Below are positions 2,401 through 63,941 of a stretch of DNA of 64,000 bases, piece by piece. Origin of the DNA: Dysidea avara. Lineage: Eukaryota > Porifera > Demospongiae > Dictyoceratida > Dysideidae. The notes below the pieces were generated by a model, which was not told the DNA's origin, did no database searches, and saw only the letters and a list, made by a program, of their open reading frames with translations. Position 1 is the first letter of the stretch. The number at the start of each line of letters is the position of its first letter. Where the stretch lies: contig NC_089277.1 of the NCBI RefSeq assembly GCF_963678975.1, positions 23,324,672 through 23,388,671 of the forward strand, in the 5' to 3' direction. The position numbers were made by a program, and so were the translations under genes.

Positions 2401-2735
2401 GCCGATTTTGAATAGTCACCACATTGACTTTCGGAACTAAGCTAAGGTAATAAAAGCCATGGCATTTAACCAAGTAAATATGTACAGTATTATATACAAC
2501 TCTAGTTGCCATTGTCTTTCTAGCTATATGTTAAACAATAAACAGTGTCCTTAATTACAGTAGCTCAATAAAAACTCCTTTTATGTACAATTACTCAGTG
2601 TTATTTTAATGACAACGGATGAGTAAATCTGCTTTCTGAATGTTGGAAATGGTTTTTAACTTCCTATGTAAGTATTTATAGTGCACGATAGTACATATAT
2701 TATTCACTATTTCACTGGCTAGGTATTAATTCCAA

Positions 2736-5700: not shown

Positions 5701-5831
5701 TATAAAGTAGTACAAACACCCTAATGAAACATACACATACACCTGAAATATACTGTAATATCATTGAAATGAACAGTTTTTAGACATGCCATAGACAAAA
5801 TTAATGGTGGCAGAGGGTCTACAGTTTTCCC

Positions 5832-5865
<34 letters not shown>

Positions 5866-14032: not shown

Positions 14033-14666
14033 CTACAAGAAGAAGGAGATGGCCACAAGTTTTATCCCAATATTTAACTAAATCAGCACAAAATACTTAT
14101 TCCATATGTACATGTGTCCATACATGCACAACCATGCAATGTATCTAATGCAATGAATAGTAAGAAAACCTTCTAGTCCAGCAGAAGAAAGGGCCTTTTG
14201 GGTGAACCTTGTGATCTGTAGTTTATTTTATGTTAAAAAAATGTTTCTCCATAATTACTATGGACTACTCAAAATCACCTCCTGGACCTGTGTCAGCACT
14301 GAGTAAATTAAAGCTACATCATAAAGTTTAACCTACCATCTCTCCAAAATTAGTTTACTCCACTCTCTATCTACGAAAAGACAAAACAAAACTCTTGGTC
14401 CCAACAAACTGGCTCCACTTTGTAGCTACATACAAGGTTCTGTCCATACACATGGTCTAAACGAGATACAGTGCTATTTAGGGTTATAGGCAGGAGTGTT
14501 GTATCAATAACAACTACAATGAAACCTGTGGTGTGGATCTAGGGCTTTCTCTTTCACCCATTTGTTCATATAGCAATAGTCATTGTCTGATCATTAGTAC
14601 AGAAGTCACACATCACTTCTTCAGTCTCCAGTAGATGTTGTCTTATTCATATTGTAAAGTACTCAA

Positions 14667-16637: not shown

Positions 16638-17649
16638 CAGTGTTGGGCAAGTTACTTTGTAAAAGTAACTAGTTACATATTACATATTACTTGCAACTGA
16701 ACTATTTAGTTACAGTTACATATTACTCATAAAATAAAGTAACTGTAATAATATTACACTTTGTATCCACAGCCTTAAGCTGTCACGTGTGAAACTACCA
16801 CTGTTTGTTCGAATTGACAGTACCAACTAATACCCAGCAACATCTTCTTGCTGCTAGAGCTAGAAAGGAAGATCGATATAGCTCCTTGCAATATGACCTC
16901 CAGCTTTCTGGGTTAACTGTCAATCTTGTTCCAATTGAAATTGGTTGTTTAGGCCACTTTTTGTCAGAAAAAAATGCTCAAATGGCTACTGCTTGTGAAG
17001 TGCCAAAGAAAACCATAAGATCCTTGTTTGAGCAGGCAGCTCGCATTGCTGTGTCCTGTTCTTACAGAATTTTTAATTCTAGAGCCTCCCCGGGCTGGGA
17101 TCTTTTAGACCACCTTAGGTAAATTTAAGTATTACATATATGTAGATATAGTTTTTTTTTTTTGTTTTTTGTGTATTGTAATTTAATTTACCTTTAGTTA
17201 ATGTAAGTCTTGCCAGCGCTCCTGTACTGATCCATCAGCACATGGTACCCCTGTGTCTAGGCCCCTGTATGCTTGTAATGCATATTTTGTCTTAATCATT
17301 AAGACGTTTATTCTCTCTTATCACGTGACACGATTGCGTTGTTGGGCAATGTGCAAATCTTGGTTATAAGTAAGAAGCTGGTGAATAAGCTTCATTAAGT
17401 AGACTTCATTACTTCGTTGTGGCTAGACGTTACTCAGAGGATAACTAACGAGATTAGTAACTTCGTTACTTGTAGTAATAACATTACGTAATATTAGACT
17501 CGTTACAGTAACTATATTACTTAGGTAGCGCGTTACATCTGTAAGTAAAGTAGCTTGAGTTATATTACCTGTTTTTATAGGGTATTTCGTTATATTACTT
17601 AGTTACCACAAAAGTAATAATATTACGTAACGCGTTACTCCCAACACTG
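16638..17649. mobile_element. hAT-like element carrying a captured ORF
   Basis: The ends are CAGTGTTGGGCAAGTTACTT and its near complement, and CTTCTAAC is directly repeated outside both ends (16630-16637 and 17650-17657), an 8-bp target duplication typical of hAT elements. Long AT-rich GTTAC/GTAAC subterminal stretches flank a central ORF (16805-17122) that does not look like a transposase. The element sits inside a LINE 3' end whose frame continues on the right side. The element at 27474-28077 has the same ends without the ORF. Confidence 0.85.
16805..17122 (+). CDS. ORF with retroelement-associated domain, 105 aa
   Basis: An open frame in the middle of the hAT-like element. It has FELTVP near the start, a basic ARARKEDRY segment, a VPIEIGCLGH segment, and a hydrophilic C-terminal half. 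From memory, ELTxP and xEIGxxG blocks in this order occur C-terminal to the reverse transcriptase in some invertebrate retroelements, possibly as a nuclease-like fold. This is a family impression and not a firm assignment. It starts in mid-domain and is best seen as a captured 3' fragment. Confidence 0.35.
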   Translation: MFELTVPTNTQQHLLAARARKEDRYSSLQYDLQLSGLTVNLVPIEIGCLGHFLSEKNAQMATACEVPKKTIRSLFEQAARIAVSCSYRIFNSRASPGWDLLDHLR

Positions 17650-21178: not shown

Positions 21179-35366
<14,188 letters not shown>

Positions 35367-37609
35367 CTATGAATAAAATTACGCCTTGTGTTACAAAACA
35401 TAATATAGTTGTGAACATGAAATGGGCTTAATGTGATCTAAAGTAAGGAAATTTTATGTAAAACACACCAAAAAGCACTTAATCAAAATCAGCAAGCCTA
35501 CATGTATATAACTACTATATCAGTACAACTCTATACATTTCTTAACATTTGGCATACGTCCGTGAAAAGCCAGCAAAAGAGTTAAAGGAGCAAGGTCAAC
35601 TATCCACACCAAGAGACAAATTACTATTGTTAGTGTTACCAACCAATATTAGAATTAGTTATTTGAACTCACTGCAATAATTGAGCCACTCTGAATTACA
35701 GGCAGGGTTGGTTTATAAAACAAATTTGCAAATGATTCTCATTCTACCACACTACTGAAAATTGATGACCTGTGGTTATGAACTATTCCTTTTCACCTAT
35801 TGATCATTTTAGTTATGTACGTAGGCTAACAGTAGTTGTAGTTGTATACCACAAGTTACTGTTAGACCTCAATGCTTCAGAAGTGCCTTTCAGTTTCTTA
35901 TTCTTAACATATATATGCTTTTAAATACTATAACAGTACAGCTACTATAACAGTTAGCTAATCCATACTGTAAACATGGTTACTAGAATGCATGATGCAT
36001 GATGTATGTTAACCACATTAGCATACACAGCTACAGTTACAAAAAGCATAGCAGAATAAAGTAGTCTCATGTAGCCATACTGCCTTTTTACCTTACTGAG
36101 TGATGGCCAGCATAAAAAAGGGTCTATTGAAGTTCCAATAGCCATTTGGTGCTGACTATACACTATGCAGAATTTTGGAGATTTTGAATGGTTAGTATGG
36201 TGAATAATAGTATGGCGAATATAAAGAAGTGTTACAAAGTGCAAGCGATTGTCTCACTGCAAAAATGTTTGAGAGTATACCCCCAAGGGGAGAAGGCAAG
36301 ACATCAGATGCTTTCCACTATCAATGTACAGTGTAGAGATCACTGGTTTGCACTTTTTTATTATTAATTAACATTTATTTATTTAGCTTTACAGTACAAG
36401 TGCTGAAGGTCTGTAGGACACCTGGTCCTACAGCCTGTTTAAAGATGTTATTAAGTATGTTTGAAAAGTTGCAGAAAGGAGAAAATATCCATGACTGTAC
36501 CTAGGCAGCCTCAATCCTACAGCCATCTGATTAATGCTCTAACCCTTATCAATGTCAAGCCCCAACCTCTCCCACTATCACCAAGTTTACTGGTTTGCAC
36601 TTACCAATGTAAATCCCTAACCCCATACTAAACTGGAGATATGACACCTATCTTTTTTTTGGTTTTTGGTGATGGTAGTTGGGCCAAAATTTGTTGTTTC
36701 AGTATAGGTAATCAAATCCCTTCTTATGTGGTGGGAACATAGTAGGGATTTATTAACACGTTGCTTTGACCCAGTATAGGGGCAAATCTCCTATATTGCC
36801 CTACATGTCTGGGGGTGTGTGTGTGGGGGGAATGATATTGCATATATAGGTGCATTTAATATTGACACATTTAATATTGACACATTTAATATTCAATATA
36901 AATATAATTTCAACTTGTTACAAACTTGATACCATGTTAAGTTTTCATCTATGCATGCCTGGTTAGCAGATGCAGCTTGTACTGGTACGGTATCAAGCCA
37001 TTATGGACATTATAGACCATCCAATTTTATTGATTTTGGGTTTGATTTTTATTATTTCGTGCCATGTGGCAAGTCATATAAACCGACAACACAAGTATAA
37101 TCAAGTACAAGTGCTATAGGCACAGATAGCAGAGGATGTGGACATAGGTATAGTGCATTCTGAAATAAACTTGCATCTTGCATTAGTAAACTATTTGCAC
37201 AATAAGAGTGGCTCCGAACAAAATGTAATGCTGATATTAGCCGCACTACGCAGTTGCACAAATAAAGATAAACCACCAATTGTCCATCTGGCCAGTAGCT
37301 ATACATATGTATAATAATCAGGAGTGACCACACTTTATTCAGAAACCTGCATGCAGAAGTGCTTGAACAGCCACACACATATGAAGAAGTTTGCGGAAAT
37401 TTGGCTCCAGCGGCACCAATATGTCCACTATAAAGTATATAGTTTCTATTGTATTGATTCTTTATACTCGTATATCTTTTCACTCAAAGTATGAATTTCA
37501 GATTTGCAAGTGAAGAGCAACTCTTTGGCAAACAGGATGATGCTAAATGAGGCTCAGTACACAATAAATCCACTCGTCATTTAATACAGGAACACAATCA
37601 TCTGCAATA
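35367..37609. other. Upstream region of gene B
   Basis: Long blocks match the region upstream of gene C (62114-63660): GGTTACTAGAATGC, ATACCCCCAAGGGGA, a GTGGGAACATAGT block, and ATTTTATTGATT.TGGGTTTGATTTTTA. This shows the duplication includes 5' flanking DNA. No first exon could be supported. A small 17-base tandem repeat (CACATTTAATATTGA) lies at 36850-36890. Confidence 0.5.
36360..36590 (-). repeat. SINE-like element
   Basis: It shares TACAGTACAAGTGCTGAAGG and CCTACAGCCTGTTTAAAG with 30118-30226 in the same orientation. On the minus strand it ends in an AAATAAATAAA tail. The 5' part (36480-36590) could be a degenerate tRNA-like head. Confidence 0.5.
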
Positions 37610-37860
37610 TCAAGACACACGATAGTGTGTCGTGCGGCCCAAGAAGCCGGCGCGCCACACCGTGAGTATATTAACAGGAAGAAAGAAAACGCAATTTTCA
37701 CACCTATGTAGCTCTGTGATCCCTTATCCGATTGGAACCAAAATTGCTAGAGACGTGCCGCCCAGTTAGGGGAGTCTACATACCAAATTTGGAGAAAATC
37801 GCTCCAGCCATTTCCGAGATACGAGCGAACAAAATTTCGTTTTAATTTCTTCGTTTTTTT

Positions 37861-37909
37861 CTTCTTCTTCTTCTTCTTCTTCTTCTTCTTCTTCTTCTTC
37901 ATCTTCTTC
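37861..37909. repeat. (CTT)n microsatellite
   Basis: CTT units, nearly perfect, within the head module of composite element I. The matching site in element II (about 50900-50925) has only a short GAAGAAAAAAAAAA remnant, so the tract expanded in this copy. Confidence 0.95.
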
Positions 37910-38514
37910 ATTTCGCACACTTCGCAAAATTCGCCATAAAACACGAATGCGTGCTCGGATCGGGCTGAAATTTGGCACACTTAAAGGGCTCATTAAGGAG
38001 GATCTCCGTATCAACTTTGGTAGGAATCCGATGAACATTCACGGAGTTATGACCGATTATTTGCGTAAAATAAGGTCGAAGGTCTGTCACGCCTACAGGG
38101 TAAACCCCTTGGAGGAATCAGTTGAAAATTGATATGTAGATGGAGCAACCATCGTAGGAGTGCCTTTTTGTGGTTTGAAAGGAATCGGGATAAAGACCAT
38201 GGAGATATGACACAAAACCCAACCTGTGTCAAAATTACGCGATCGATTTTTATGAATAAAAAACTATTAGTTTTCGTGTCTACCAGGCAAACCGCTTAGA
38301 CCAACGAGCTGAAAATCAGTATGTAGCTTAAATAATCATCATAGAAAGTCCTTGCAGTAGTACAGAAGAATCGGATTACAAATCACAGAGTTATGGTTCG
38401 AAAGGCAACTACGTGCAGCAAATGCGAGATCGAGATACTCTAATAGAACAGTCACCCTAATAAATCATTCAGCTGCATTTATAATTTACTCAGTAATATT
38501 ACATTGCAAGTTAT

Positions 38515-41500
38515 TCTGTAGAGGATTCAGCTACAAACAAGTCACCCTGTAGTCAGATCAGCTAGAAGAAGATACCTTATAGATTGTTCAGCTACAAAGA
38601 AGCCATCATATAGAGAGTTCAGCTCAAATAAATCACCCTGTAGAGAATTCAGCTACAAACAAATTACCCTATAGAGAGATTAGCTAGAAGGAGTTACCTT
38701 GTAGAGACTTCAGTTACAAAGAAACAATCATGCAAAGAGTTTAGCTGCAAACAAATCACCCAGTAGAAAGTTCCGCTATGAACAGATCACACTGTAGAGA
38801 GTTCAGTTAGAAACAAGTCATCTTGTAGATAGATCAGCTAGAAGAAGTCACTTTGTAGAGAGTTCAGCTACAAAGAAACCACCATGTAAGAGAGTTCAGC
38901 TGCAAACAAATCACCCTGTAGAGAGTTCAGCTAGGAACAAGTCACCCTGTACAGAGATCAGCTAGAAACAAGTCATCCTGTAGAGAGTTCAGCTAGAAGA
39001 AATTACATTGTAGAAAGTTCAGCTACAAAGAAACTACCATGTAGAGAGTTCAGCTACAAACAAATCACCCTGTAGAAAGATCAGCTAGAAGAAGTTACCT
39101 TGTAGAGACTTCAGCTACAAATAAGTCACCCTGTAGAGAGTTCAGCTAGAAACAAGTCATTATGTAGAGAGATCAGCTAGAAACAAGCCACCCGTAGAGA
39201 GTTCAGCTAGAAGAAATTACATTGTAGAGAGTTCAGCTACAAACAAATCACCCTGTAGAGAGTTCAGCTAGAAACAAGTCATCCGTAGAGAGATCAGCTA
39301 GAAACAAGTCATCCTGTAGAGAGTTCAGCTAGAAGAAATTACATTGTAGAAAGTTCAGCTACAAAGAAACTACCATGTAGAGAGTTCAGCTGCAAACAAA
39401 TCGCCCTGTAGAGAATTCAGCTACAAACAAATTACCCTGTAGAAAGATCAGCTAAAAGAAGTTACCTTGTAGAGAGTTCAGCTACAAATAAATCACCCTG
39501 TAGAGACTTCAGCTAGAAACAAGTCACCCTGTAGAGAGATCAGCTAGAAACAGGCCACCAGTAGAGAGTCCAGCTAGAAGAAGTTACATTGTAGAGAGTT
39601 CAGCTACAAAGAAACTACCATGTAGAGAGTTCAGCTACAAACAAATCGCCCTGTAGAGAATTCAGCTACAAACAAATCACCCTGTAGAAAGATCAGCTAG
39701 AAGAAGTTACCTTGTAGAGACTTCAGCTACAAAAAAGTCACCCTGTAGAGAGTTCAGCTAGAAACAAGTCATTATGTAGAGAGATCAGCTAGAAACAAGC
39801 CACCCGTAGAGAGTTCAGCTAGAAGAAATTACATTGTAGAGAGTTCAGCTACAAAGAAACTACCATGTAGAGAGTTCAGCTGCAAACAAATTGCCCTGTA
39901 GAGAATTCAGCTACAAAAAAATTACCCTGTAGAAAGATCAGCTAGAAGAAGTTACCTTGTAGAGAGTTCAGCTACAAATAAATCACCCTGTAGAGACTTC
40001 AGCTAGAAACAAGTCACCCTGTAGAGAGATCAGCTAGAAACAAGCCACCCGTAGAGAGTTCAGCTAGAAGAAGTTACATTGTAGAGAGTTCAGCTACAAA
40101 GAAACTACCATGTAGAGAGTTCAGCTGCAAACAAATTGCCCTGTAGAGAATTTAGCTACACACAAATCACCCTGTAGAAAGATCAGCTAGAAGAAGTTAC
40201 CTTGTAGAGAGTTCAGCTAGAAACAAGTCCCCCTGTAGAGAGATCAGCTAGAAACAGGCCACCCGTAGAGAGTCCAGCTAGAAGAAGTTACATTGTAGAG
40301 AGTTCAGCTACAAAGAAACTACCATGTAGAGAATTCAGCTACAAACAAACCACCCTGTAGAGAATTCAGCTACAAACAAATCACCCTGTAGAAAGATCAG
40401 CTAGAAGAAGTTACCTTGTAGAGACTTCAGCTACAAATAAGCCACCCTGTAGAGAGTTCAGCTAGAAACAAGCCACCCATAGAGAGTTCAGCTAGAAGAA
40501 ATTACCTTGTAGAGAGTTCAACTACAAACAAATCACCCTGTAGAGAGTTCAGCTACAAGCAAGTCACCTTGTAGAGAGTTCAGCTAGAAGAAGTTACATT
40601 GTAGAGAGTTCAGCTACAAAGAAACTACCATGTAGAGAGTTCAGCTGCAAACAAATTGCCCTGTAGAGAATTCAGCTACAAACAAATCACCCTGTAGAAA
40701 GGTCAGCTAGAAGAAGTTACCTTGTAGAGAGTTCAGCTACAAACAAATCACCCTGTAGAGAGTTCAGCTAGAAACAAGTTACCCGTAGAGAGATCAGCTA
40801 GAAACAAGTCATCCTGTAGAGAGTTCAGCTAGAAGAAGTTACATTGTAGAGAGTTCAGCTACAAAGAAACTACCATGTAGAGAGTTCAGCTTCAAACAAA
40901 TTGCCCTGTAGAGAATTCAGCTACAAACAATCACCCTGTAGAAAGATTAGCTAGAAGAAGTTACCTTGTAGAGAGTTCAGCTACAAACAAATCACCCTGT
41001 AGAGAGTTCAGCTACAAACAAGTCACCCTGTAGAGAATTCAGCTAAAAACAAGCCACCCGTAGAGAGTTCAGCTAGAAGAAGTTACATTGTAGAGAGTTC
41101 AGCTACAAAGAAACTACCATGTAGAGAATTCAGCTACAAACAAATCACCCTATAGAAAGATCAGCTAGAAGAAGTTACCTTGTAGAGAGTTCAGCTACAA
41201 ATAAATCACCCTCTAGAGAGTTCAGCTACAAACAAGTCATCCGGTAGAGAGATCAGCTAAAAGGATCACCTTGCAGAGAGGTCAGCTACAAAGAAATCAC
41301 CATGTAGAGAGTGTAGCTGCAAAGAAATCACCCTGTAGAAAATTCAGCCACAAACAAATTGCCCTGTAGAAAGATCATTTAGAAGAAGTTACCTTGTGGA
41401 GAGTTCAGCTACAGAGAAACCATTCTGTAAAGAGCTCAGCTGCAAACAAATCACCTGTACAGAATTCAGCTACAAACAAATCACCCTGTACAGAGATCAG

Positions 41501-42595
41501 CTAGAAGAAGTCACCTTGTAGATCGTTCAGCTACAAACAAATCACCCTGTAGAGAGATCAGCTAGAAGAAGTCACCTTGTAGAGAGTTTAGCTACAAAAA
41601 AACCACCATGTAGAGAGTTCAGCTGCAAAGAAATCACCCTGTAGAAAATTCAGCCACAAACAAATTTCCCTGTAGAAAGTTCAGTTAGAAGAAGTTACCT
41701 TGTAGAGAGTTCAGCTACAAAGTAACCATTCTGTAAAGAGCTCAGCTGCAAACAAATCACCTGTACAGAATTCAGCTACAAACAAATCACCCTGTAGAAA
41801 GATCAGCTAGAAGAAGTTACCTTGTAGACAGTTCAGCTACAAACAAGTTACCCTGTAGAGAGTTCAGCTAGAAGAAGTTACATTGTAGAGAGTTCAGCTA
41901 CAAAGAAACTACCTTGTAGAGAGTTCAGCTTCAAACAAATTGCCCTGTAGAGAATTCAGCTACAAACAAATCACCCTGTAGAAAGATCAGCTAGAAGAAG
42001 TTACCTTGTAGAGAGTTCAGCTACAAACAAGTCACCCTGTAGAGAGTTCAGCTAGAAACAAGTCACCCTGTAGAGAGATCAGCTAGAAACAAGTCACCAT
42101 GTAGAGAGTTCAGCTAGAAGAAGTTACATTGTAGAGAGTTTAGCTACAAAGAAACTACCATGTAGAGAGTTCAGCTTCAAACAAATTGCCCTGTAGAGAA
42201 TTCAGCTACAAACAAATCACCCTGTAGAAAGATCAGTTAGAAGAAGTTACCTTGTAGAGAATTCAGCTACAAACAAATCACCCTGTAGAGAGTTCAGCTA
42301 CAAACAAGTCACCCTGTAGAGAGATTAACTAGAAACAAGCCACCCGTAGAGAGTTCAGCTAGAAGAAGTTACATTGTAGAGAGTTCAGCAGTTTAGCTGC
42401 AAACAAATCGCCCAGTAGAGAATTCAGCTACAAACAAATCACCCTGTAGAAAGATCAGCTAGAAGAAGTTACCTTGTCGAGAGTTCAGCTACAAACAAAT
42501 CACCGTGTAGAGAGTTCAGCTACAAACAAGTCATCCGGTAGAGAGATCAGCTAGAAGGATCACCTTGCAGAGAGGTCAGCTACAAAGAAATCACC
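38515..42595 (+). repeat. 31-bp minisatellite array I
   Basis: About 130 units of 31 bases. A typical unit reads TGTAGAGAGTTCAGCTACAA followed by ACAAATCACCC. Units alternate between CTACAAACAAATCACC, CTAGAAACAAGTCACC, CTAGAAGAAGTTACCTT and CTACAAAGAAACTACCAT types, giving a higher-order period of several units. There are no unique spacers, so this is not CRISPR-like. Confidence 0.95.
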
Positions 42596-42704
42596 CTGCT
42601 TCATCTTTTCTTCTTCCTGTAGTAAAGAAATAAATGATAGGTTAAAAAGCCCTAAAGCTGGCCATAGGCCGGTTTTGGGGTATACAAATACAAAAAGAAG
42701 TGAA

Positions 42705-43021
42705 ATCTAATCCAAAACAGCCAAGCTGTAAAAAAAGAGTGCGGCCCTGAGAAAGGCTATGGTGAAAAAAGATGTGAAATCCAAGGTGGCGGCCAAGAAA
42801 TGGCTGTGATGGTAGGTTAATGGTAAAAATTTTAATAATGACAATTCAGGTGAATTTTGTGCGGCACCAAATTCACCTGAATTGTTGTTATTAAAATTTT
42901 TACCATTAACCTACCATCACAGCCATTTCTTGGCCGCCACCTTGGATTTCACATCTTTTTTCACCATAGCCTTTCTCAGGGCCGCACTCTTTTTTTACAG
43001 CTTGGCTGTTTTGGATTAGAT
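42705..43021. repeat. Terminal palindrome of element I
   Basis: The left arm (ATCTAATCCAAAACAGCCAA onward) and right arm are near-perfect inverted copies of about 150 bases each, meeting around TTTTGTGCGGCACCAAA. The arms contain complementary ORFs that are by-products of the symmetry. Confidence 0.93.
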
Positions 43022-43702
43022 ATTTCTAACGGAACATTTTGATGATTCTAATAAATTCATTCACATTTTGTGACATCTTTGGATTATCCCAGATTCGCAG
43101 CTAGATTATTTAGCCTATTCTTGAGTGATTTGAACAAGCCATATTGAGCACCTATAGCGTAAACTATCACTCATCAAAATGATGTCAGTCAGGTTAAATT
43201 GTGTATGATTCTGAGCAAGATTGTTGCTGTGATTTGGTATGGATTCCATCTGGTTAGTAACACACAGCAAAGCTTTAACTGTAAATCACTCCTCAGAATT
43301 AATACAGAGCTTTAAAAAAACTTTATTAAAGAAATTCTGTATGCATACTAAAGTTCCAATGCTCCAAAGCACCTGTCATAAATACACTATATGAAGCATA
43401 GAAGTAAAGCTTTTAATAAATGAAATATAGGTTAAAATATCTGCAGCTGCTTATAGGCTTTGATCTTAACTGGAGTATAAATCACCTGCAGCTGACCTTA
43501 AATTTCTGTTTTTGAGCCAAATTAAACTTCCTGATATGGTCTTGAATCCAGGGCTTCCCCTGAAATTTGCATAAAATTTTTATATTTAATTTCCCACTGA
43601 TTAGTTGACACACTCATCAATATTTGTGACCAGACCTGCAAAAACAGAGTATGTGGGTACATAAAATTTGCCTTGTTTTTCAGAACTCATATATAACTTT
43701 TA

Positions 43703-44029
43703 GGTCACTCCAAATAAATTCTCTGTTTCCTGCCTACCACCCACATCTGTTTACTGCCAGCGGTGAACAGCCTGATAATGTTGGCCAGAGGTTTTTTCTG
43801 TGTATTTTGCTACATATCAGCCACTAAGGAGCCAGCACAGCCCAGTAATCTCGTCTCTGGACTCCAGTCGTGGTCTGCCTCCATTTTGAGGTCTAGCCCT
43901 TGCCCACCCCACCACCCCCCACCCTCAGGTAAATATTGGCTGCCAATTTTATAAAGGAAATGGACTACCTGCCCGCATGCAAATATGCCTAAGAGGAGGA
44001 TGGGAAACAGAGAATTTATTGGAGTGGCC
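43703..44029. mobile_element. Harbinger-like MITE
   Basis: Inverted ends are GGTCACTCCAAATAAATTCT and AGAATTTATTGGAGTGGCC, extended by CTGTTTCC/GGAAACAG, with TTA directly repeated on both sides (43700-43702 and 44030-44032). The 3-bp TTA target and GG-CC ends fit PIF/Harbinger non-autonomous elements. Confidence 0.75.
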
Positions 44030-45146
44030 TTAACTTGGCTATTAACTAGCTTAATTAGCTATATAAGGCCACGAAAAGTTAATTATAAGTTTCTGGTTCC
44101 CTTCCTGGTCATTTTTGTTGTTGAATGAATTGCACAATCATCATACAATAATATCTTATATCTGTTGAAGTCATCATCTCCTGTAAGCACTCTTGTTATA
44201 AAGATGCACAAATTTATATATTAACTTTGTTTTTTCCCTAATAATTCCCTGTAATGATTATTTTGTGTATGTATTGTCTTGTTTATAACTGTAGCTAACT
44301 GTATAGTGTTTCTGCTCCTACCAATTCCCCAAAACTTAGGTGACCAGGCTTGTTTCTTTCTTTTTTCAATTGATGTGGTACACTACATTTGACACCGCAG
44401 TACATGGAATAGATAGATAAATATCTAACTCCACAAAATCGGCTAAAGCCATTCTTCCTTGCAGGAGACATTACAATACATACATACAATACAACTACAT
44501 AATATAATTAACTTTGCATGGCCTAATGCAAGTTACAGAATGCAAATAGTTTGTTCCAATCCTGAGTTATGACCTTTACAGAGGAGTCTAATAAAAATAA
44601 TAATGTGATGGAGTGTCAGTACTTTGTGCCCACATGCACATGCCCTATTATTGCAGGGTCAGTCACATTTTCAAAGCGAACAGCATATAGTGTGTAGAAA
44701 AAATCGCGAATAAAACACGGTGGTAAGAAATGACGGAAAACTTCAGTTGGGAGTGGCCTTAACGACATCCTAGCGAGTCGCTTTGTAGCGAACGAGCTAA
44801 CACGTACGATCAATACCTTAAGTTACTGTAGCTCACAAAATGTCCTCTCCACGTTGGGTCCTCGGTTGCACCTATCCTTTTCATGCAGTACAGCTGGCTG
44901 GTGACACGACTCAAACATACACTGGACCATTCACGGAACCATACAAAGGTCATTAATCACGTGGGAATTTTGAAGCCTAGCAAGTGGTTGCCATAGCAGT
45001 TCATAATAAAAAATAGTGAGGGTGTTTTTATTATGAACTCTTGCTTTTTAATATACTGACCATGCGTGATTCAGTGATCCGGCATGGCAACGTTGTTGTT
45101 GTCTTTATCTTTACCAGTTAGGATTACTGTAACTCTGCACCTGGTA

Positions 45147-45904
45147 AGGTAAATGAGGGTAATTCCGGACACTCTTTAGTAAAATCGCTCTAACACTGCA
45201 CTCACAACGAGTTAAGACAAACTCTAGGAATCGTTTTAAAACCTATGTCATGGTGCATCTGCAGTACAAATTTCGTTTCGATACAATCAACTGCTGAGGA
45301 GTTATGAGCCAAAATTTAACAGCGTGTAAAAATGCAACATGCGCCTAATTCCGGACACTTCGAATAACAAGCAAGTAGCGCCTTCCACAGGTTATAACAA
45401 TCCTCTTTGAAGTATGGAGACTAAAGTACAACTCATCTGCAGCTTATAAATCAAGTAGAAAGTTCATACCTTTTGGGAGAAAGCAGTAGTGAGTATTTTA
45501 AAAAGTTTATGTAATTCACGAATATTTTCTTTGTATTTCAACCGAGCAGCTGCTGAAAAATCGACTACCACTTCGCCTGTGCTGCATGGATTCTTATGAT
45601 TTTTAGTATGCAATTAGCCGAGGGTATGACCTTCATATAAGTCTCTGAAAATCGAAAATAGGAGCTTGGGCTGCATGGTTAGATAAACATTTTCAAAGTT
45701 TTTGAACAAAACTACCCGTGATTTTGCTACAAATACTTGTCAAACTTCAAGGTGGAATAACGGATTCGCTTCAATTTTGGTTTGTAGATAGGCCATAGGA
45801 CACTGCATTAGCATGCCAAATTATAGGCCCAAGGATTCTACCATTGTTGAGAACGATCTAAGTGTCCGGAATTAGCCGCTGTCCGGAATTACCCGCACTT
45901 ACCT
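45147..45904. mobile_element. mariner-like MITE, 758 bp
   Basis: Inverted ends of about 25 bases, AGGTAAATGAGGGTAATTCC / AGGTAAGTGCGGGTAATTCC, both continuing GGACA. TA flanks both sides (45145-45146 and 45905-45906). The right end carries an extra copy of the CCGGAATTA block. No ORF of note. Confidence 0.75.
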
Positions 45905-47568
45905 TACTAATGAGCGAGAGAAGGCGTAAGACATGCAAGAGAAACAGCCTCGGAAAGGAGCTCACCTCCGACGAGGAGTAAGGACCATTCTACAGCTATC
46001 CTTTCATTGAGTTACACACTGGGGCTATAGGGAAAACATGAAATGTACGTATAGATTCAGGCAGTGGCATTTTTGGATTAAGGAATAAATTCTACACTGC
46101 ACTGATAAATCATCTTTTGTCTGAAATATTGTGTAGCCTGTGGCCTGCACATGATGCATGGCGACAGGCCCTGAACTTAACTGTGCACATATCATGATCA
46201 GTTACTAGTTAAGGAAGAGAAAGTGTGACTGCCATGAACTGAAGCAGAAAATGCACCGCCATTAAGGGATGTATAAATTGGCTGGCTTTATCAGTTCAGT
46301 CTCTATCAAGGTCATATTTCTGACTGATGAGAGAGAGACGTGATGACCAGACTCATGCAGTTTGTTTGTACTGGCTGTGATAACAGTACATGCATGCATA
46401 CAAAATTAAAACAAGAACATGCAATAAAGTATTTTAAAAATGAGTTACTTAATGAGGTGAATTGTGCCCTGCCACGGCTTGTGACAGACATTGTAGATTT
46501 ATTTATTAGTTAAAACTTGAAATGTCAGCTGATTTCTTCCACCATATAACATACTCTAACTCCCTGCTTGCCTACACAGGCTTTCAGTAGCCTTCGCTTC
46601 TTTGCAAACCCCTAGTGGGATAATGACTAATGATCTGGCAAATCCCTAAGAGAAGTTGTGCATGTATGGTTCCCCTGCTGTTCACTGCATGGTGGAATGC
46701 AATACCATCCGACTCCCATCCTGCTGATCCGTCACGATGTCATGCTTAGCCATTTACTTAATAATTTATAACATTTAGTTTGTATTTCAGTTGTTCTTAC
46801 TTGTATATTGTGTGTTTAGCTAATTTTTATACTGCATGTCTATTTTTTTAGTGTTACTGTATGTTGTCACTCCTGCAAGGAAGAACGGCTCTAGCTGATT
46901 GTGTGGAGTCAAAAAACAATAAATCAAGTACAGGTTGAATGATGTAGATTGCCTAGACTGCAAGTTGCCTGCAGATCAAAACCTACACTGCATGGTCTGA
47001 GATTTTTTCTGTATTCAAGTAACATGTTTCTGATACATTAATATAGCTATAATTACTTTTACTGTACAGCCATGCACTTCCATGCTTGATGCGGAGCATA
47101 TAGTACAACACTTAATGATAAAAATATGGTCACCCAGATGGGCTGGGTTCGTGATTTGACAGCACTGCTGCATGGGCAAACCATTCTACAATTTAATTGT
47201 GCATGGAGGAGTAGAGGTATTTGGAGTGTGGCTGTAGAAATTGTTGATTATGACCCTGTGTTTAATTTGGCTTGTTATTTTATTTCATTTTTTAATTTTA
47301 TTGTAGTAGGCTGTTCTTCAGCTGTGCCCTGATTTTGTACATAATACAATAATACAGCTGGGTGACTATAGGGGTAAAATTTCTTGCTCAAGGAAACAAC
47401 ATTACACTAGCATAATTATATAGTAGTACGTAGTACTGCTCAGAAATTAGATTTCCACTTTTAACATTTCAGCTAGGTTATTTGTATTATTCAGGTGGAG
47501 TAGAATCTCAGTTATACAAGCTTTCAGTATAATATTCTTTGCAGGTCATAGTGGGATGGTGACTGATA

Positions 47569-47851
47569 CAGGGGCGTAGGCAGGATTTCCAAAAGGGGGG
47601 TTCTGCCCTAAGTATAGAATTTCGTAGGTGTGCACATGTGTACACGTGTAAACATGTGTATTCTTATAAATTCATTCGCAATAGCGAGTAGAGGTACTTG
47701 AATTCCTCTGCCTGAAGACCTGTAGCTACCCATTTCAGTGGATTTGTGTAAGTTAATTCAGTTCTAGTTAACCAGTATCACGATTTAAAAAACTTAACTC
47801 TGAAAAGGGGGTTCGTCCGAACCCTTTGAACCCCCCCTGGCTACGCCCCTG
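47569..47851. mobile_element. Short TIR element, CAGGGGCGTAG type
   Basis: The ends are CAGGGGCGTAGGCAGG and CCTGGCTACGCCCCTG, with G and C runs just inside. TGATA is repeated on both sides. The ends resemble those of the 32320-34140 element. Confidence 0.75.
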
Positions 47852-47900
47852 TGATAATAAGGTGCTAAATGTAAAGGTATCTTTCTTGCTGCATTCCTAT

Positions 47901-48224
47901 ATCTAATCAAAAACAGCCAAGCTGTAAAAAAAGGTGCGGCCCCCAAAAAGGCCATGGTGAAAAAAGATGTGAAATCCAAGGTGGCAGCCAAGAAATGGCT
48001 GTGATTGTAGGTTAATGGTTAAATTTTAATAACGACATTTCAGGTGAATTTGGTGCCAAGACCAAGCGGCACAAAATTCACCTGAATTGTCGTTATTAAA
48101 ATTTAACCATTAATCTACCATCACAGCCATTTCTTGACCGCCACCTTGGATTTCACATCTTTTTTCACCATGGCCTTTTTGGGGGCCGCACCTTTTTTTA
48201 CAGCTTGGCTGTTTTTGATTAGAT
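47901..48224. repeat. Terminal palindrome of element II
   Basis: Inverted arms begin ATCTAATCAAAAACAGCCAA and end with its complement. The arms match those of 42705-43021. The short ORFs on opposite strands at 47794-47991 and 48134-48442 share a translated segment only because they read the two arms. Confidence 0.93.
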
Positions 48225-48417
48225 ATCACTTCTTTTTGTATTTGTATACTGCTTTTGGGGCTTTTTCAACCCATGTGTTTTTTTCTTTACCACAGGAAGA
48301 AGAAAAGAACTTAAAGAAGATTTGTAATACTTCAATTATTTTTGATTTTATTAGTAATCATACAAATTATATACATATATTTATTACATGCCCATTATTC
48401 CCCACAGGATATCTTTT

Positions 48418-50128
48418 TGCAGCTGATCTCTCTACTGGGTGACTTGAAATGTAGCTGAACTGTATACAGGATGGTTTCTTTGTAGCTGAACTCTCTACAA
48501 GGTGACCTCTTCTAGCTGGTCTCTCTACAGGGTGATTTGTTTGCAGCTAAACTCTCTACATGGTGGTTTCTTTGTAGCTGAACTCTCTATAAGGTGACTT
48601 CGTCTAGCTGAACTCTCTACAGGGTGATTTGTTTGCAGCTGAACTCTCTACATGATGGTTTCTTTGTAGCTGAACTCTCTACAAGGTGACTTCGTCCAGC
48701 TGATCTCTCTACAGGGTGATTTGTTTCTAGCTGAACTCTCTACAGGTGATTTGTTTGCAACTAAACTCTCTACATGGTGGTTTCTTTGTAGCTGAACTCC
48801 CTACATGATGGTTTCTTTGTAGCTGAACTCTCTACAAGGTAACTTCTTCTCTACAGGGTGATTTGTTGTAGTTGAATTCTCTACAAGGTGGTTTGTTTGA
48901 GGCTGAACTCTCTACATGGCGGTTTCTTTGTAGCTGAACTCTCTACAGAGTGATTTATTTGCAGCTGAACTCTCTACATGATGGTTTCTTTGTAACTGAA
49001 CACTCTACAAGGTAACGTCTTCTAGCTGATCTCTCTACAGGGTGATTTGTTTGTAACTGAACTCTCTACATGATGGTTTCTTTGTAGCTGAACTCTCTAC
49101 AAGGTGACTTCTTCTAGCTGATCCCTCTACGGGGGATTTATTTGTAGCTGAACTCTCTACAAGTGATTTATTTGCAGCTGAACTCTTTATGTGGTGGTTT
49201 CTTTGTAGCTGAACTCTCTACAAGGTGACCTCTTCTAGCTGATCTCTCTACAGGGTGATTTGTTTCTAGCTGAACTCTCTACAGGTGATTTTTTGCAGCT
49301 AAACACTCTACATGGTGGTTTCTTTGTAGCTGAACTCTATACATGATGGTTTCTTTGTAGCTGAACTCTTTACAAGGTGACTTCTTCTAGCTGATCCCTC
49401 TACGGGGGATTTATTTGTAGCTGAACTCTCTACAAGTGATTTATTTGCAGCTGAACTCTTTATGTGGTGGTTTCTTTGTAGCTGAACTCTCTACAAGGTG
49501 ACCTCTTCTAGCTGATCTCTCTACAGGGTGATTTGTTTCTAGCTGAACTCTCTACAGGTGATTGTTTGCAGCTAAACACTCTACATGGTGGTTTCTTTGT
49601 AGCTGAACTCTGTACATGATGGTTTCTTTGTAGCTGAACTCTTTACAAGGTGACTTCTTCTAGCTGATCTTTCTACTGGGTGATTTGTTTGCAGCTGAAC
49701 TCTCTACATGGTGGTTTCTTTGTTGCTGAACTCTCTACAGGATGTTTGGCTTGTAGCTGAACTCTCTGTAGGGTGATTTGTTTCTAGCTTATCTCTCTAC
49801 AGGTTGATTTGTGTGTAACTGGTCTCTCTACAAGCTGATTTGTTTGTAGCTGATCTCTCTGCAGGTTGATTTGTTTGTAGCTGATCTCTCTACAAGTTGA
49901 TTTTTTTGTTGCTGATCACTCTAAAAGTTGATTTGTTTTGTAGCTGAACTCTCTGAAAAGTGTTTTGTTTGTAGTTGATATCTCTACAAGATGATTTTTT
50001 GTAGCTGACCTCTCTTCAGGGTGATTTGTTTCTAGCTGATCGCTCTACAGGTTGGTTTGTTTCTAGCTGAACTCTCTACAGGGTGATTTGCTTGTAGCTG
50101 AACTCCTTACATTGTGTCTAGTTTCTAG
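48418..50128 (-). repeat. 31-bp minisatellite array II
   Basis: Units such as TAGCTGAACTCTCTACAGGG plus TGATTTGTTTG are the reverse complement of the array I unit. About 55 units precede the gap. A block of several units near 49140-49370 is repeated at 49390-49620, a local higher-order duplication. Confidence 0.95.
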
Positions 50129-50328
50129 NNNNNNNNNNNNNNNNNNNNNNNNNNNNNNNNNNNNNNNNNNNNNNNNNNNNNNNNNNNNNNNNNNNNNNNN
50201 NNNNNNNNNNNNNNNNNNNNNNNNNNNNNNNNNNNNNNNNNNNNNNNNNNNNNNNNNNNNNNNNNNNNNNNNNNNNNNNNNNNNNNNNNNNNNNNNNNNN
50301 NNNNNNNNNNNNNNNNNNNNNNNNNNNN
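50129..50328. other. Assembly gap of 200 N
   Basis: Exactly 200 undetermined bases at the edge of the minisatellite array. The round size suggests a placeholder, so the true array length is unknown. Confidence 0.99.
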
Positions 50329-51218
50329 GAGTAAATAAACTAGCTGAATGCTCTATTAGGGTGACTGTTCTATTAGAGTATCTCGATCTCGCATTTGCTA
50401 CACGGAGTTGGCTTTCGAATCATAACTCAGTGGTTTGTAATCCGATTCTTCTGTACTACTGCAAGGACTTTCTATGAAGATTATTCCAGCTATACACCGA
50501 TTTTCAGCTCATTGCTCTAAGCGGTTTGCCTAGTAGGCGTGAAAACTAATACTTTTTTATTCATAAAAATCGATCGCGTAATTGTGACACAGGTTGGGTT
50601 TTGTGTCATATCTCCGTGGTCTTTATCTCGATTCCTTTCAAACCACCAAAAGGCACTCCTACTATGGTTACTCCATCTACATAGCAATTTTCAACTCATT
50701 CCATGAAGCGGTTTACCCTGTAGGTGTGACAACAAATCGATCTTGTTTTACGCGAATAATCGGTCATAACTCCTGAACCATTCATCGGATTTGTACCAAA
50801 TTTGATGCTAGGATTTGCCTTTGGACTCCCTTTCTGTGTGCCAAATTTCAAGGCGATCGGAGTACGCGTTTGCTTGTTATAGCAATTTTTGCAAGTGTGC
50901 GAAAAGACGAAGAAAAAAAAAACGAAACTTTGGCAGCTCGTATCTCGGAAATAGCTTGAGCGATTTCCTTCAAATTTGGAATGTAGACTCCCTTGGCTGG
51001 CGGGCAACTGTGTAGCAAATTTGGTTCCAATCAGATAAGTGATCACCGAGATACAAAGGTGTGAAAATGACGTTTTCGTTCTTCCTGTCAATATACTCAC
51101 GGGTGTGGCGCGCCGGCTTCTTGGGCCGCACGACACACTACCGTGTGTCTTGATATAATCACATTAAAATGAATTTGCTCATGCAATGCATTATTTATCT
51201 ATAGCATATATCATTTCC

Positions 51219-51460
51219 ATATGTGATTGGTATTTGACAAAACCAGGCTTCCACACACATCCAGATTTATGACTTCAAAGAATCATATCTCAATGTAGGA
51301 ATACGCTATCACTTTCAGATTTTGACCTATTATTACATAATACAATGAAAGCATTGTGAGAAAATTGTAGGTCAAAAGCATGCTGACTGGAAAAGTTACA
51401 AGCAATTGAAGTCGAAGAATTGGATGTGTGTGGAAGCCTGGTTCAAATCCAGTCACATAA
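51219..51460. mobile_element. Foldback element
   Basis: The left arm with CCAGGCTTCCACACACATCC is inverted at the right end (GGATGTGTGTGGAAGCCTGG), and the outer parts ATGTGATTGG/CCAGTCACAT also pair. A degenerate relative with GGCTTTCACACACA is near 9785. Confidence 0.75.
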
Positions 51461-52008
51461 CTACAATAAAAGAATGACCATCCTCATGATTATGTGCACC
51501 TTAACAAGCTAAATTACTAAAATTATAGTGTGCCACAAGATTATCAAAGAGACAAGACATATCAAACTTGATCACATGAAAGTATAACTTGTGATTTATT
51601 CATCCCCTTTCAAACAGCACATGTTTCGTCCTAAAATGTCTCCTGCCATCTCTCAGTTCTCCTGTGCCCCATTACTCCCCCACTTAGTAGGATATTCTAT
51701 AGATCTGCATACAATGTATGTTCATTGCCACATGTATCCTATTCAGGAATTATACACACACCACAACTGCAGTATTATCCACAATAAAATACTGAATAAA
51801 ATTAAACTTAATAATATATCAAAAATGTTAATGAAAGGCTACAGCTACCCACCATGTTCTTCCAGTTCTTTCTCTATTTTGGTACTGCAGCACTGCTGCT
51901 GCTATTTGCTTTGTTTGACCATCATGGCGAGCTAAGTCCCTACATTTTGATATCACAATACAACATCCACTGGACTGCAGCTACAAACATGTACATAGAA
52001 ACGGGAGC

Positions 52009-52561
52009 TCATAAGCGCTCCTGAATGCCCTGATAACTGAAAAGTTTACAGTATCCATGGAGAACCACAGCGATTTCATATTTTGTTTGTGGGAATCTTT
52101 CTAACACCAGCCCAACCATTTGTGCAATCTGCAAAATTGATGCAAAGTGTAAAAATTTATCATATAATAGTATCAAGAGTTCATAATATTAGAAGAGGTA
52201 CTATTATACTACTATTATGAACTCGATCTTGATAATATATTATTATAGTAACATGTAGCTCACGTACCTGTTATAATATACATGTATATAGCTCTAATGT
52301 GACTTACCGATGTAGACTACAAAATTAATATTGATTGACATGTAAGAGGATGAAGAGAAGATGCCTGACCATCACATTATAAATGGGCAAAACGTCGACA
52401 TGCTTTGGCCATTCAGAGATGGCCAACAGTTTGATGACAAAGAGATGATAAGCCATCTTTAAAATTAAAAATATGACAATCTGCAAAACTACCACAAGAA
52501 AGTGGTACCTCTTCCATCCTGATTCCCAATTATTGCTCCTAAATAGTTGAAAGCACCATCT
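52009..52561 (-). CDS. Unrecognised two-exon ORF candidate
   Basis: The last exon (52009-52128, minus strand) has a strong acceptor (TCAATTTTGCAG) and an open 39-codon frame ending in TGA, with segments QMVGLVLERFPQTKYEIAVV and LHGYCKLFSYQGIQERL. A 64-codon open stretch at 52370-52561 lies upstream and can be joined in phase through a GTCAGG donor. It contains hydrophobic segments (YHFLVVVLQIVIFLILK and YHLFVIKLLAI) and an ISEWPKHVDVLPIYN segment. Joining them is inference. I know no homologue. It could be the 3' end of a gene whose upstream exons I missed, or a transposon relic. Confidence 0.35.
52170..52228. repeat. Foldback of the GAGTTCATAATA family
   Basis: ATCAAGAGTTCATAATA at the left pairs with TATTATGAACTCGATCTTGAT at the right, around a centre of about 20 bases. 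It lies in the intron of the candidate ORF at 52009-52561. Confidence 0.55.
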
Positions 52562-61302: not shown

Positions 61303-62113
61303 ACCACACAACACAGATGCATGGCTGTGCCTACCCAGTAAATCAGCACTAGGACACTGTGCACTGCTCAAGTCCCATGAGTCAGTGCAGACAAATCAGG
61401 ACTAGTAACGCACAGGAGGCTGTATCTTGTCTTACAGGTAAAGCTGTGGACACCTGAAGTCCCACCAGGATATTCACCCATTATGTAAAAGATGGACAGT
61501 TGGTGTTTGCTTCTCTGGTTAACACCACGTATCCATTGATGTTGCAGTTGGGTGGGCTGCTTTCCCCATTGAAACTTATTCACCAGGTCCCCATTTAGCA
61601 GCTGAGTAGACTGGAACAATTTGAGTAAAGTTTCTTGCTTAAGGAAACAACAACAGAGCAACCAGGTATTGAACCTTTTGATTACCAGGTAAACCACTTG
61701 GCAATGCTGCTTCACTACACATGTACACACATGTAGCCACAATGTCATACAAGTGTAAATACTAGACTGTACGCTACACTAGTATTTGTATTAGTATCAC
61801 CAATACATAACACACTACCTGATTACTGGCTACTGAAGTGAACTTGAAGCCAAGTGTTTGTAGGTAAGTCCCACACACATCACCTATAGCAACTATTGTA
61901 CATTTCCACCAGTAGCGTCGTAGTTTCTTCAAGAAGTCTGGTCTGCATGCTATGTATGGACTAAGGATAGCGCTCATAAGGAAGAACACTCCGGCTGTAA
62001 GTGTGGATGAGATATCTTCTCCTGTGTGATTCTCTAGTAATGTTGTGAACACCCCGATGCCTGTTACTAATGGTGACAACACCTGGCCTGACATCAGGAC
62101 AATGGCAAATTTC
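53197..62113 (-). CDS. SLC35F1/F2-like transporter, gene C
   Basis: Minus-strand gene with six coding exons: 61819-62113, 60034-60190, 59478-59637, 59072-59124, 56752-56906 and 53197-53466 (stop at 53197). Lengths and phases are identical to A and B except for the last exon (270 bases). The visible part encodes about 362 residues. The 53-base exon and its GTAAGTG donor are nearly identical to gene B, whereas the C-terminal tail with LIDSDDSDDGYS is like gene A. The predicted product is a membrane carrier of about ten segments with a cytosolic acidic tail; substrate unknown. The first coding exon was not found between 62114 and the end of the window. Confidence 0.85.
53865..53975. repeat. Short foldback near gene C's last exon
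   Basis: TTGCATAAAATCTTGCAAGG at the left pairs with CCTTGCAAGAATTTCATGCAA at the right. Similar sequence (TTTGCAAAATCTTGCAAGG, AGGAAAGCATCATTT) stands in the equivalent intron of gene B at 21500-21610, so it may predate the duplication. Confidence 0.55.
54000..54420. repeat. Interspersed repeat, copy 2
   Basis: Ordered similarity to 28676-29100, including AATTACCTTTACAGAATA, CAACATCAAATAA, ACGACCACCATTT and AACAAACCCATTGGTGAGAT. The ORF at 54162-54359 falls in this repeat and is not a gene. Confidence 0.6.
55775..56319. mobile_element. Degraded hAT-like element
   Basis: The AT-rich TACATTACTTTTTAA...AGTAACAAAGTAATATGTAAC body and the right end GGTAACGACCCCAACAGTG resemble the elements at 16638 and 27474. 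The left CAGTGTTGGG end is missing, and no target duplication is visible. Confidence 0.45.
60884..60965 (+). mobile_element. Short relic of the composite element head
   Basis: TCAAGACACATGGTAGCGTG, preceded by A, continues CGTGCGGCC and CACACAGTGAGTATATTGAC as in elements I and II, then similarity stops after the AGGAAGAA block. It lies in an intron of gene C. Confidence 0.75.
61011..61302. repeat. (CA)n microsatellite with TACACACGTA interruptions
   Basis: Two pure CA runs separated by a stretch of ACCTACACACGTACACA-type units. It is in the intron of gene C between the 295- and 157-base exons, with flanks related to those of the tract at 34396. Confidence 0.97.
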
Positions 62114-63941
62114 CTACAAAAAGAAAATTGACACTTTTGTGTTACAAATTTTAAATAAACATAATGTTGCCACAAAAAAGAGCACCTAAAAGTAACAAGG
62201 TTGTTATGGAAAAATCAACAAAAGCACATTACATACAATATACATATCCCCACTATAACAGTACAACTACTCTATACAATATAGCAAATCCATAACACAA
62301 GAATATGACACATGGTTACTAGAATGCGTGATGTAATGTTAACCACATCATCTGCCAACCACTACAAAACTTAAACAGTCTGGCCAAGTCAGAGTATGGA
62401 TAAAGACTTTTTTGAGTGCAACTATGCTAAAATTGAATACTGTATAGCCAGAAAGTTTGGCAGGGGGAAACTTTGGGGATTTGTATAATAGCATTTTGGC
62501 AAGAAAAAAGGCTTGGCAATTTAGTAGAGCTGATGCACAATTGTATTGGACAAAGGATTTGGTGGATTTTTAGTTTGGCGAAACACCACTCACTTGCCAA
62601 ATTTGCCAAACTCTCCAGCTAAATGGTAGCCATTATCTTTTAGTAAATGACTGCCTCACTGTGGTCTGACTCTGTAGCTAAATTATGCTTGTGAGAATAC
62701 CCCCAAGGGGAAAACAAGATTTCAGATATGCCACTACTAAGATATAACCTATTGTGTGATGGGGTGTAGCACATGCCCTATTTTTGCAGGCAACATTAAG
62801 TTGATCGAATTCCTTCTTAGGAGGTGGGAACATAGTGGAGATTTTTGGAAAGCTACTTTGCTCCAGGATGTGACACTAGAATTTGTCGGTCTCATATTCC
62901 AGGGATGGGATACGGGCATACATGACATTACATACATGGGTGCATTTATCACCATCTTCTCCAGTTTGGTCAGCAGGTGGGAATTTGTAGGGGATTCGTC
63001 ACCGTAACTCGTCCTCAGGATAGGGGTACTTGCAACAAACATAGGAATGTTAGTGATTCCCGGGGTAATTTGTAACATGAATGTTGTGCCAGGGATGAAT
63101 TAGTCACACAATCATTGCAAATCCCCACCTCTGATTGAGTCTGACTTGGGCGTAACATCAGTACACATTAATTGGTGAATTATGCACCTATCAATGTCAC
63201 GCCCCACCTACCCCAGGTCGGACAGCGGGTGGGGATTTGTCACCCAAACTCATCCCCAGGGTAGGGGCATTTGCAACACAAATAGCCATACTTGGCCATA
63301 TTGTTAGTGATTCCTGGGATAATATGTAACTCGAAGTTGTCTCCAGGAGTGGGGAATTTAATTTGTCATTCAATCCCCACCTCTGCTCGACCTCGAACAG
63401 GCTCTGCCTTCTGTGTACACCCTCCAGTGCCTAACTGGTAAAGTAGATAACAACAACGACGACCTGGGGTAGGTGGGGCTTGACATTGATAGGTGCATTA
63501 CGATCGAAACATCATACAACGTACAATCAATACAATTATACAAACACTTCCAACTTGTTGATATACCATGATAGGATTTTCATTTACAGCCTGGCTTTGC
63601 GTAGTTTTCAACCGCTAACGAACATCTAATTTTATTGATTGTGGGTTTGATTTTTAGGTTCATTAAATCCGTTTATCCGCAAACGCAAGGGGCAGGCGCC
63701 GATAGTAACTAGAAGGGAGGAATTTTCATCAATACAGGCTATCTTTTATGCATTCCACTCTAATAGGCCAGGCAAACTTGTGCCGTGTTATCAATTAAGT
63801 GCACGTATTTCGGACGCTGGCTACCATTTTACAGCACAGCAAGTGTCACTTGCACCTCAAAAACGGTGGTAAAATGTAAGTACATGCTTTAGCTAACGTC
63901 TATAGTAACAGACAGCTTGGTTTGGAGTGTTTTCTTTAATA
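62114..63941. other. Upstream region of gene C
   Basis: Shares ordered blocks with the gene B upstream region up to about 63660, so the duplicated segment includes this DNA. It also holds internal repeats around 62960-63400 (CAGCAGGTGGGAATTTGT / CAGCGGGTGGGGATTTGTCA; GTGATTCCCGGGGTAAT / GTGATTCCTGGGATAAT). No start exon for gene C was found. Confidence 0.45.

Follow-up and report, generated by a model that had tools for sequence, protein, structure and literature searches.

Two inverted copies of a three-module element in a sponge genome

We analyzed a 64,000-nucleotide stretch of the genome of the sponge Dysidea avara (NC_089277.1, positions 23,324,672 to 23,388,671, referred to below as the window), which carries two inverted copies of an element composed of a head, a 31-bp minisatellite array and a terminal palindrome. 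The limits given for both copies in a first-pass annotation were correct within 1 bp, copy 1 being located at 37610-43020 on the plus strand and copy 2 at 47902-51153 on the minus strand. Both copies start with TCAAGACACACGRTAGTGTGTCGTGCGGCCC, have heads of about 800-900 bp and end with the final bases of the palindrome. Copy 1 is a complete non-autonomous element of 5,411 bp that begins with TC, ends with TTAGA and sits between an A and a T. Its 5' terminus (37610-37640) consists of TCAA, a hairpin with a 7-bp stem (GACACAC-GATA-GTGTGTC) and then GTGCGGCCC. The head of about 906 bp (37610-38515) has no long frame and contains a TTC microsatellite at 37847-37909 that is degenerate in copy 2. 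It is followed by the array, which was delimited with Tandem Repeats Finder (TRF) at 38516-42598 and comprises about 133 monomers with a higher-order period of about 245 bp. A tail (42599-42705) that includes a GC-rich stretch, hairpin-like as judged by eye, connects the array to the palindrome of 315 bp (42706-43020), which contains GGGCCGCAC and whose last part is ACAGC-TTG-GCTGT plus TTTGGATTAGA.

Copy 2 is an independent and more divergent element of 3,252 bp including a 200-N gap, with its head at 50329-51153, its 31-bp array at 48416-50128 (TRF span 48416-50105) and a palindrome of 322 bp at 47902-48223, the arms of which are 93.5% alike. The array of this copy had also been described as a long minisatellite; it is indeed present, but 200 N at 50129-50328 cut it off from the head and obscure its length. 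Copies 1 and 2 are 19% divergent over aligned positions and their flanks (200 bp per side) showed no match over 80 bp, which means that they are not one inverted segmental duplication sharing near flanks. A scan by frame length gave no frame above 155 amino acids in either copy, and an Rfam scan of 36000-52500 gave no match. The 3' part of the copy 1 head (38110-38489) contains a tandem pair of diverged units, at a distance of about 187 bp, which are 65% alike over 133 columns, exceeding all 200 shuffles, and which are perhaps an older satellite.

The modules occur together at most sampled loci

To follow the element beyond the window we searched its own genome (550.8 Mb in 108 contigs). Words from the ends and from the array were counted as exact matches, which diverged copies escape, with the reversed word as control. 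The 5'-end word, a 29-mer starting one base outside the element, has 1,347 genome copies (688 + 659), the 3'-end word of 26 bases has 10,108 (5,058 + 5,050), with one or two per palindrome, and the array word of 35 bases has 11,786; each control gave 0. On contig C1, 100 listed 3'-word matches merge into 64 palindromes, 36 of them pairs, from which we extrapolate to roughly 5,000 to 8,000 palindromes genome-wide. The exact 5' end had 0 and 0 matches in bacterial and viral contig collections.

With the head as query, all 40 scored candidates (40 of 5,167) matched over essentially its full length. Head, array, tail and palindrome followed one another in a single order and orientation in 18 of 20 loci selected by their heads; at one of the other two (L018) the palindrome crosses the edge of the fetched stretch, and at the other (L024) the array matches reach that edge, with no tail or palindrome within the stretch. 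This joint occurrence at many loci, with sharp ends, bears out the earlier proposal of a mobile unit that disperses its own satellite. The excess of 3'-end over 5'-end words made a free-standing palindrome a real possibility, and we considered it as an independent miniature inverted-repeat transposable element (MITE). It was rejected because the element tail was found on the inner side only, and never on the outer side, for all 10 palindromes sampled by their 3' ends with the head ignored (eight inverted pairs from the top of the list, plus two of the three single words that come first in it). Three palindromes picked by similarity all had tail and array.

The linkage was also quantified on C1 between 0.36 and 4.85 Mb, where the 5 kb downstream of an array cluster hold a palindrome in 26 of 38 cases and the 5 kb upstream in 5 of 38. 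In 1,000 runs of random placement, 2.6 clusters on average, and never more than 9, had a palindrome within 5 kb downstream. Among the exact 5' ends on C1 whose surroundings were covered, seven of eight have a palindrome 3.0-8.2 kb downstream, and the remaining one has its nearest 31.7 kb away. Elements also lie next to or inside each other. At C1:4244660-4244780 the 3' end of one element and the 5' end of the next are 10 bp apart, in tandem head-to-tail. At C1:4247830-4248070 an element is inserted in the tail of another near TGTACAAATATATA, and the insertion site of L017 is similar, making this site a possible hot spot of self-insertion.

The whole unit moved recently and its array changes length quickly

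Comparison of copy 1 with near-identical copies elsewhere showed that head, array and palindrome travel as one piece and have done so recently. Copy 1 and locus L009 on contig C2 differ by 1 mismatch in 5,408 aligned bp and one 3-bp gap, while alignment with L010 on contig C14 gave 6 mismatches in 5,393 bp with gaps of 428 bp (in the array) and 18 bp. The flanks of these three copies are unrelated, which together with the near-identity of copy 1 and L009 indicates that the whole unit moved recently. The length of the array changes quickly, with 147 monomers in L010 versus 133 in copy 1 by fuzzy counting. By the same count the arrays of the 19 complete copies have 50 to 206 monomers of 31 bp, a range in which the highest value belongs to L017, whose first fuzzy match falls in its head, and which includes copy 2 with its N run. 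Mean head divergence in the sample was 2.8%, copy 2 and L028 being left out. L028 (C14:5887909-5897908) lies about 475 kb from L027 (C14:6362224-6372223); these two loci are identical over 4,439 bp with both 200-bp flanks in common, which looks like segmental duplication in the recent past or duplication in the assembly.

Termini and target site

All 22 5' ends start with TC, as in canonical Helitrons, and the base preceding TCAAG is an A in each of the 22 5' flanks (L027 and L028 share one flank), the boundary reading A followed by TCAAGACACACG. The 3' end is closed by GATTAGAT in 19 of 20 copies, L021 deviating in its last bases. The end sequences of the element are TCAAGACACACG...GTGCGGCCC at the 5' side and GGGCCGCAC...GGATTAGA at the 3' side. 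For the empty-site check suggested by the annotation, we took 19 copies, joined the two flanks of each and looked for matches to these junctions in loci L001-L048 and the window. Five of them matched an uninterrupted site across the junction, and three of the five (L020, L023 and L025) were readable. L025 is inserted in the head of another copy, and uninterrupted heads match its joined flanks; those of L023 match L025:5226-5505. The joined flanks of L020 match an uninterrupted repeat within the window itself (17317-17638, no strand assigned, 93.8% over 322 bp), a paralogous empty site in which G stands instead of A before the junction. Judged from these sites, insertion appears to take place between A and T without gain or loss of bases, as for canonical Helitrons, or, equally, with a 2-bp AT duplication.

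The 5' hairpin, with a stem of 7 bp and -8 kcal/mol, was equalled by 0 and 1 of 200 shuffles in the two window copies. It is followed by GTGCGGCCC, which forms a 9-bp asymmetric inverted repeat with GGGCCGCAC, inverted and located 32-33 nt from the 3' end. An 8-base core of this repeat is present at both ends in all of the 19 complete copies except the two duplicates L027 and L028 (17 of 19). When the ends were shuffled, they had a word of at least 9 bases in common in 182 of 20,000 trials. A small 3' hairpin (ACAGC-TTG-GCTGT) lies 11 nt before the end, inside the long palindrome; GGGCCGCAC precedes ACAGCTTGGCTGT by about 9 nt and is close to, but not immediately upstream of, the 3' hairpin.

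The palindrome has matching arms and both centre orientations

When folded, the palindrome of copy 1 (315 nt plus one extra base) is a nearly unbroken hairpin of -191 kcal/mol. Shuffled sequences average -35 kcal/mol (z -37), and none of 100 folds as well. We extracted 32 palindromes and compared their centres. For the main spacer type, 16 have one orientation (counting both members of the duplicate pair L027 and L028, and also copy 2 with its mixed centre) and four have the other (L020, L047, L053 and L055). Two further spacer types were seen by eye in both orientations (L025 versus L054; L051 and L052 versus L056). L020, of the minority orientation, has a head 2.3% from those of its nearest relatives, which have the other orientation.

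The arms were compared position by position in 30 palindromes, leaving out the deleted L050 and the duplicate L028. Arm-pair positions carry 27 complementary double changes, 7 non-complementary double changes and 103 single-arm changes, where about 0.5 complementary double changes are expected under independence; sliding the pairing by 5 to 20 positions gave 1 to 6 double changes of any kind versus 34. The 27 complementary changes represent 12 kinds, of which 9 are private to one copy; the others are common to relatives and thus not independent. In a set of 28 palindromes, from which L009 and L010 were also removed, the arms of the same palindrome differ by 2.8% versus 4.0% for random arm pairing (the observed value was reached in 0 of 100,000 permutations), and own arms are closer than the mean foreign pairing in 24 of 28. 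By these patterns the arms exchange sequence and the loop inverts within a young subfamily. Arm matching and the presence of both centre orientations suggest that the palindrome is copied while folded into a hairpin; they fit a single-stranded intermediate in folded form and, equally, conversion in the chromosome.

Candidates for an autonomous partner

RepHel genes are common in the genome, with at least 150 matches (150 of 230 candidates scored). The autonomous partner of a HINE/DINE-1 element would be a RepHel with endonuclease that has the ends in common with it. Exclusion patterns that join the 5' or the 3' end to another interior found 1 and 3 places, and the two of these four that were examined yielded no partner: L059 is a divergent copy without long frame and L060 a deleted palindrome. 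A further candidate, L042, in which a RepHel frame lies downstream of the 31-bp array, was rejected, because there a canonical-looking Helitron has inserted into an array-bearing copy, within its tail (L042:1-2605 and 2606-4500). The 5' end of this nested Helitron, TCTATATTATAAGAGTG, is found in L043 with a different flank, so that the RepHel of L042 belongs to a separate inserted Helitron. A second insert, of about 820 bp, is present in the array-bearing copy as well. Scores divide the RepHel genes into several distinct groups. Judged by eye, one group (L040) has an OTU-like N-terminus; another has very large frames of up to 2,798 amino acids, several of which are on the small contigs C14 and C15.

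Comparison with known elements

We compared the element with described families. The HINE layout consists of a head with microsatellite, an array and a palindrome (PMC4067079, PMC7492417), and the Dysidea element agrees with this HINE/DINE-1 organization, being non-coding with a microsatellite, central tandem repeats and a 3' palindrome. Among the closest described systems is Cg_HINE of the Pacific oyster, a non-autonomous Helentron-type element with a left module, a satellite-like array and a right module (PMC7492417). Like the Dysidea element, it has a microsatellite in the left module, a central array in fixed orientation and a palindrome in the right module, is dispersed genome-wide and inserts without target duplication, and no autonomous partner was identified in the oyster either. 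It differs by a short 3' stem-loop and a T-rich or TT target, in place of the 315-322 bp palindrome and the A/T target in Dysidea, and by a longest array of 29 monomers, against 50-206 monomers of 31 bp (PMC7492417). One main oyster family has monomers of about 165 bp in arrays averaging about six monomers (PMC8268682), the oyster monomers being longer in bases than those of Dysidea. The Pearl elements of bivalves, compared here by description, are likewise interspersed with central repeats and were later reclassified as non-autonomous Helentrons (PMC7492417).

The ends bring the element close to Helitron2, which also has a 5' terminal hairpin, a T at the 5' end, insertion mostly without duplication, and an asymmetric inverted repeat, of 8-15 bp (PMC3627910). 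The 3' copy of this repeat directly precedes the 3' hairpin in Helitron2, 20-30 bp from the end, and in Dysidea it lies 32-33 nt from the end with a spacing of about 9 nt. The 5' repeat copy of Helitron2 is 0-2 bp from the end within the hairpin and the target is TTTT followed by T or C, whereas in Dysidea the repeat starts 22 nt in, past the hairpin, the target is A followed by T, and the 3' end carries the palindrome of 315-322 bp (PMC3627910). Canonical Helitrons (Helitron1) share the 5' TC and the insertion between A and T. Their hairpin lies 10-12 nt before the 3' end, and the Dysidea element has a short one at 11 nt, matched in energy by 23 and 28 of 200 shuffles; unlike them the Dysidea element has no CTRR end and no RepHel gene, and it has a 5' hairpin (PMC4067079, PMC3627910). 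FoHeli1/2 of Fusarium oxysporum are similar in having TC followed by a hairpin, asymmetric inverted repeats and an AT in the target (TNAT), but they are autonomous and end in ATTTT, and the part of their description at hand mentions neither a satellite nor a long palindrome (PMC5148889).

Satellite-bearing non-autonomous Helentrons are known and the general element type is not new; the remark in the annotation, whose author knew of no named family with exactly this build, is thus partly right. It holds for the long terminal palindrome, since a Helitron with such a structure was not found in the literature searched, which was mostly outside subscription journals and outside Repbase; the family may have a Repbase entry already. 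What is new is the long terminal palindrome, in which the arms match and the centre is present in either orientation, together with arrays of 50-200 monomers.

A probable Helitron-like transposon carrying its own satellite

Taken together, the element is very probably a non-autonomous, Helitron-like DNA transposon of the rolling-circle type that carries its own 31-bp satellite. Its anatomy reads best as Helitron2/HINE-like, without assignment to any one subgroup, because it lacks the CTRR end of canonical Helitrons, the TTTT target and 5' repeat position of Helitron2 and the TT target of HINE. The RepHel protein of another Helitron family in the genome would nick at the 5' TC end, a single strand would be displaced up to the 3' end, and the displaced strand would be joined into an AT dinucleotide elsewhere, so that every jump would seed a ready-made satellite array. 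The terminal palindrome, once single-stranded, could fold into a hairpin, whereupon one arm may serve as template for the repair or copying of the other, and the loop may invert.

Several observations weigh against this interpretation. The 3' terminus is TTAGA (19 of 20 ends) and not CTRR, and the small 3' hairpin alone is no better than shuffles, 23 and 28 of 200 folding as well. Two of the five empty-site matches (L017 and L022) fall in TA repeats and are uninformative, and the data fit both an element TC...GA between A and T and an AT duplication around CAAG...TTAG. Arm matching is reversed in 3 of 28 palindromes (L027, L047 and L057), with a tie in L021. On C1, an exact 3'-end word is missing from the 10 kb downstream of 12 of 38 array clusters, and the 10 kb inward of 37 of 64 palindromes lack an exact array word (35 bases); truncated, mutated or separate pieces of the element probably exist. 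No autonomous element with these ends was found in a search that is far from complete: five stretches upstream of RepHel genes lack these ends, and on C1 from 0 to 32.6 Mb an exact 5' end was seen by eye within 20 kb upstream of 0 of 5 RepHel matches.

Other origins of the unit account less well for its structure. A MITE or foldback element, for instance Tetris, that moves by cut and paste, and in which the palindrome arms would be long inverted repeats and the satellite would have expanded inside, is improbable: the palindrome alone resembles foldback DNA, and a link between a foldback transposon and a satellite has been published (PMC4079207), but here both inverted repeats are at the 3' end while the 5' end is of different sequence, there is no target duplication beyond the possible AT, and the one-sided tail of 10 of 10 palindromes indicates that none is a separate unit. 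Judged by the ends, we regard as very improbable a Crypton-like or other tyrosine-recombinase element inserted as a circle via a 2-bp AT match. The AT at both sides would suit a 2-bp crossover; the hairpin at the 5' end and the asymmetric inverted repeat of 9 bp suit ends of the Helitron2 type better (PMC3627910). Hardly credible is the view that three unrelated repeats are adjacent by chance or that the two copies derive from one inverted segmental duplication. The palindrome and array words are each very abundant, and L027 and L028 do have both flanks in common. The fixed module order in 18 of 20 loci, with flanks that differ except in this pair, and the 26 array clusters with a palindrome versus 2.6 expected nevertheless argue against chance, as do, against a duplication, the unrelated near flanks of the window copies and the near-identical copies elsewhere.

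A separate matter is the origin of the matching arms and flipped centres, which concerns the palindrome only. Arm-to-arm conversion is known in chromosomal palindromes, and it comes close to an even chance that ordinary gene conversion or inversion of a chromosomal cruciform produced these patterns, which would be compatible with a Helitron-like element. Orientation differences between copies are silent on the time of the flip; on the other side, the flip of L020 within a young subfamily needs fairly fast inversion, though no transposition step. Terminal hairpins of parvoviruses provide a model in which the 3' end folds back and the ends exist in two orientations, flip and flop. That the 3' palindrome acts in this way, the intermediate folding, priming or templating its own second strand and being resolved to flip and flop, is unlikely; if true, a cellular Helitron-like element would join a hairpin-replication step to rolling-circle transposition.

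Other features of the window

Parts of transporter genes of the SLC35F-like kind (PF06027, E between 1e-10 and 5e-10) are located at 13714-14061, 35039-35437 and 61774-62214, all on the minus strand, so that the window holds several members of this family, and both elements lie between two of the three stretches. A reverse transcriptase fragment (PF00078, E 1e-11) was found at 1152-1604 on the minus strand. The segment 47820-47855, with GTTCGTCCGAACCC and CCCCCCTGGCTACGCCCCTG, adjoins the 3' flank of copy 2 and resembles part of another repeat.

Implications for satellite dispersal and Helitron-like transposition

The Dysidea family is a clear case of satellite DNA as moving cargo, an array of 133 monomers having moved intact within a 5.4-kb unit very recently, and near-identical copies are already 14 monomers apart in array length. 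In a model cited in the oyster study, long arrays go with low mobility (PMC7492417); against this stands a family with 50-206 monomers that is abundant and recently active. The record kept by the palindrome, in the matching of its arms and the orientation of its loop, makes a hairpin step in Helitron-like transposition testable.

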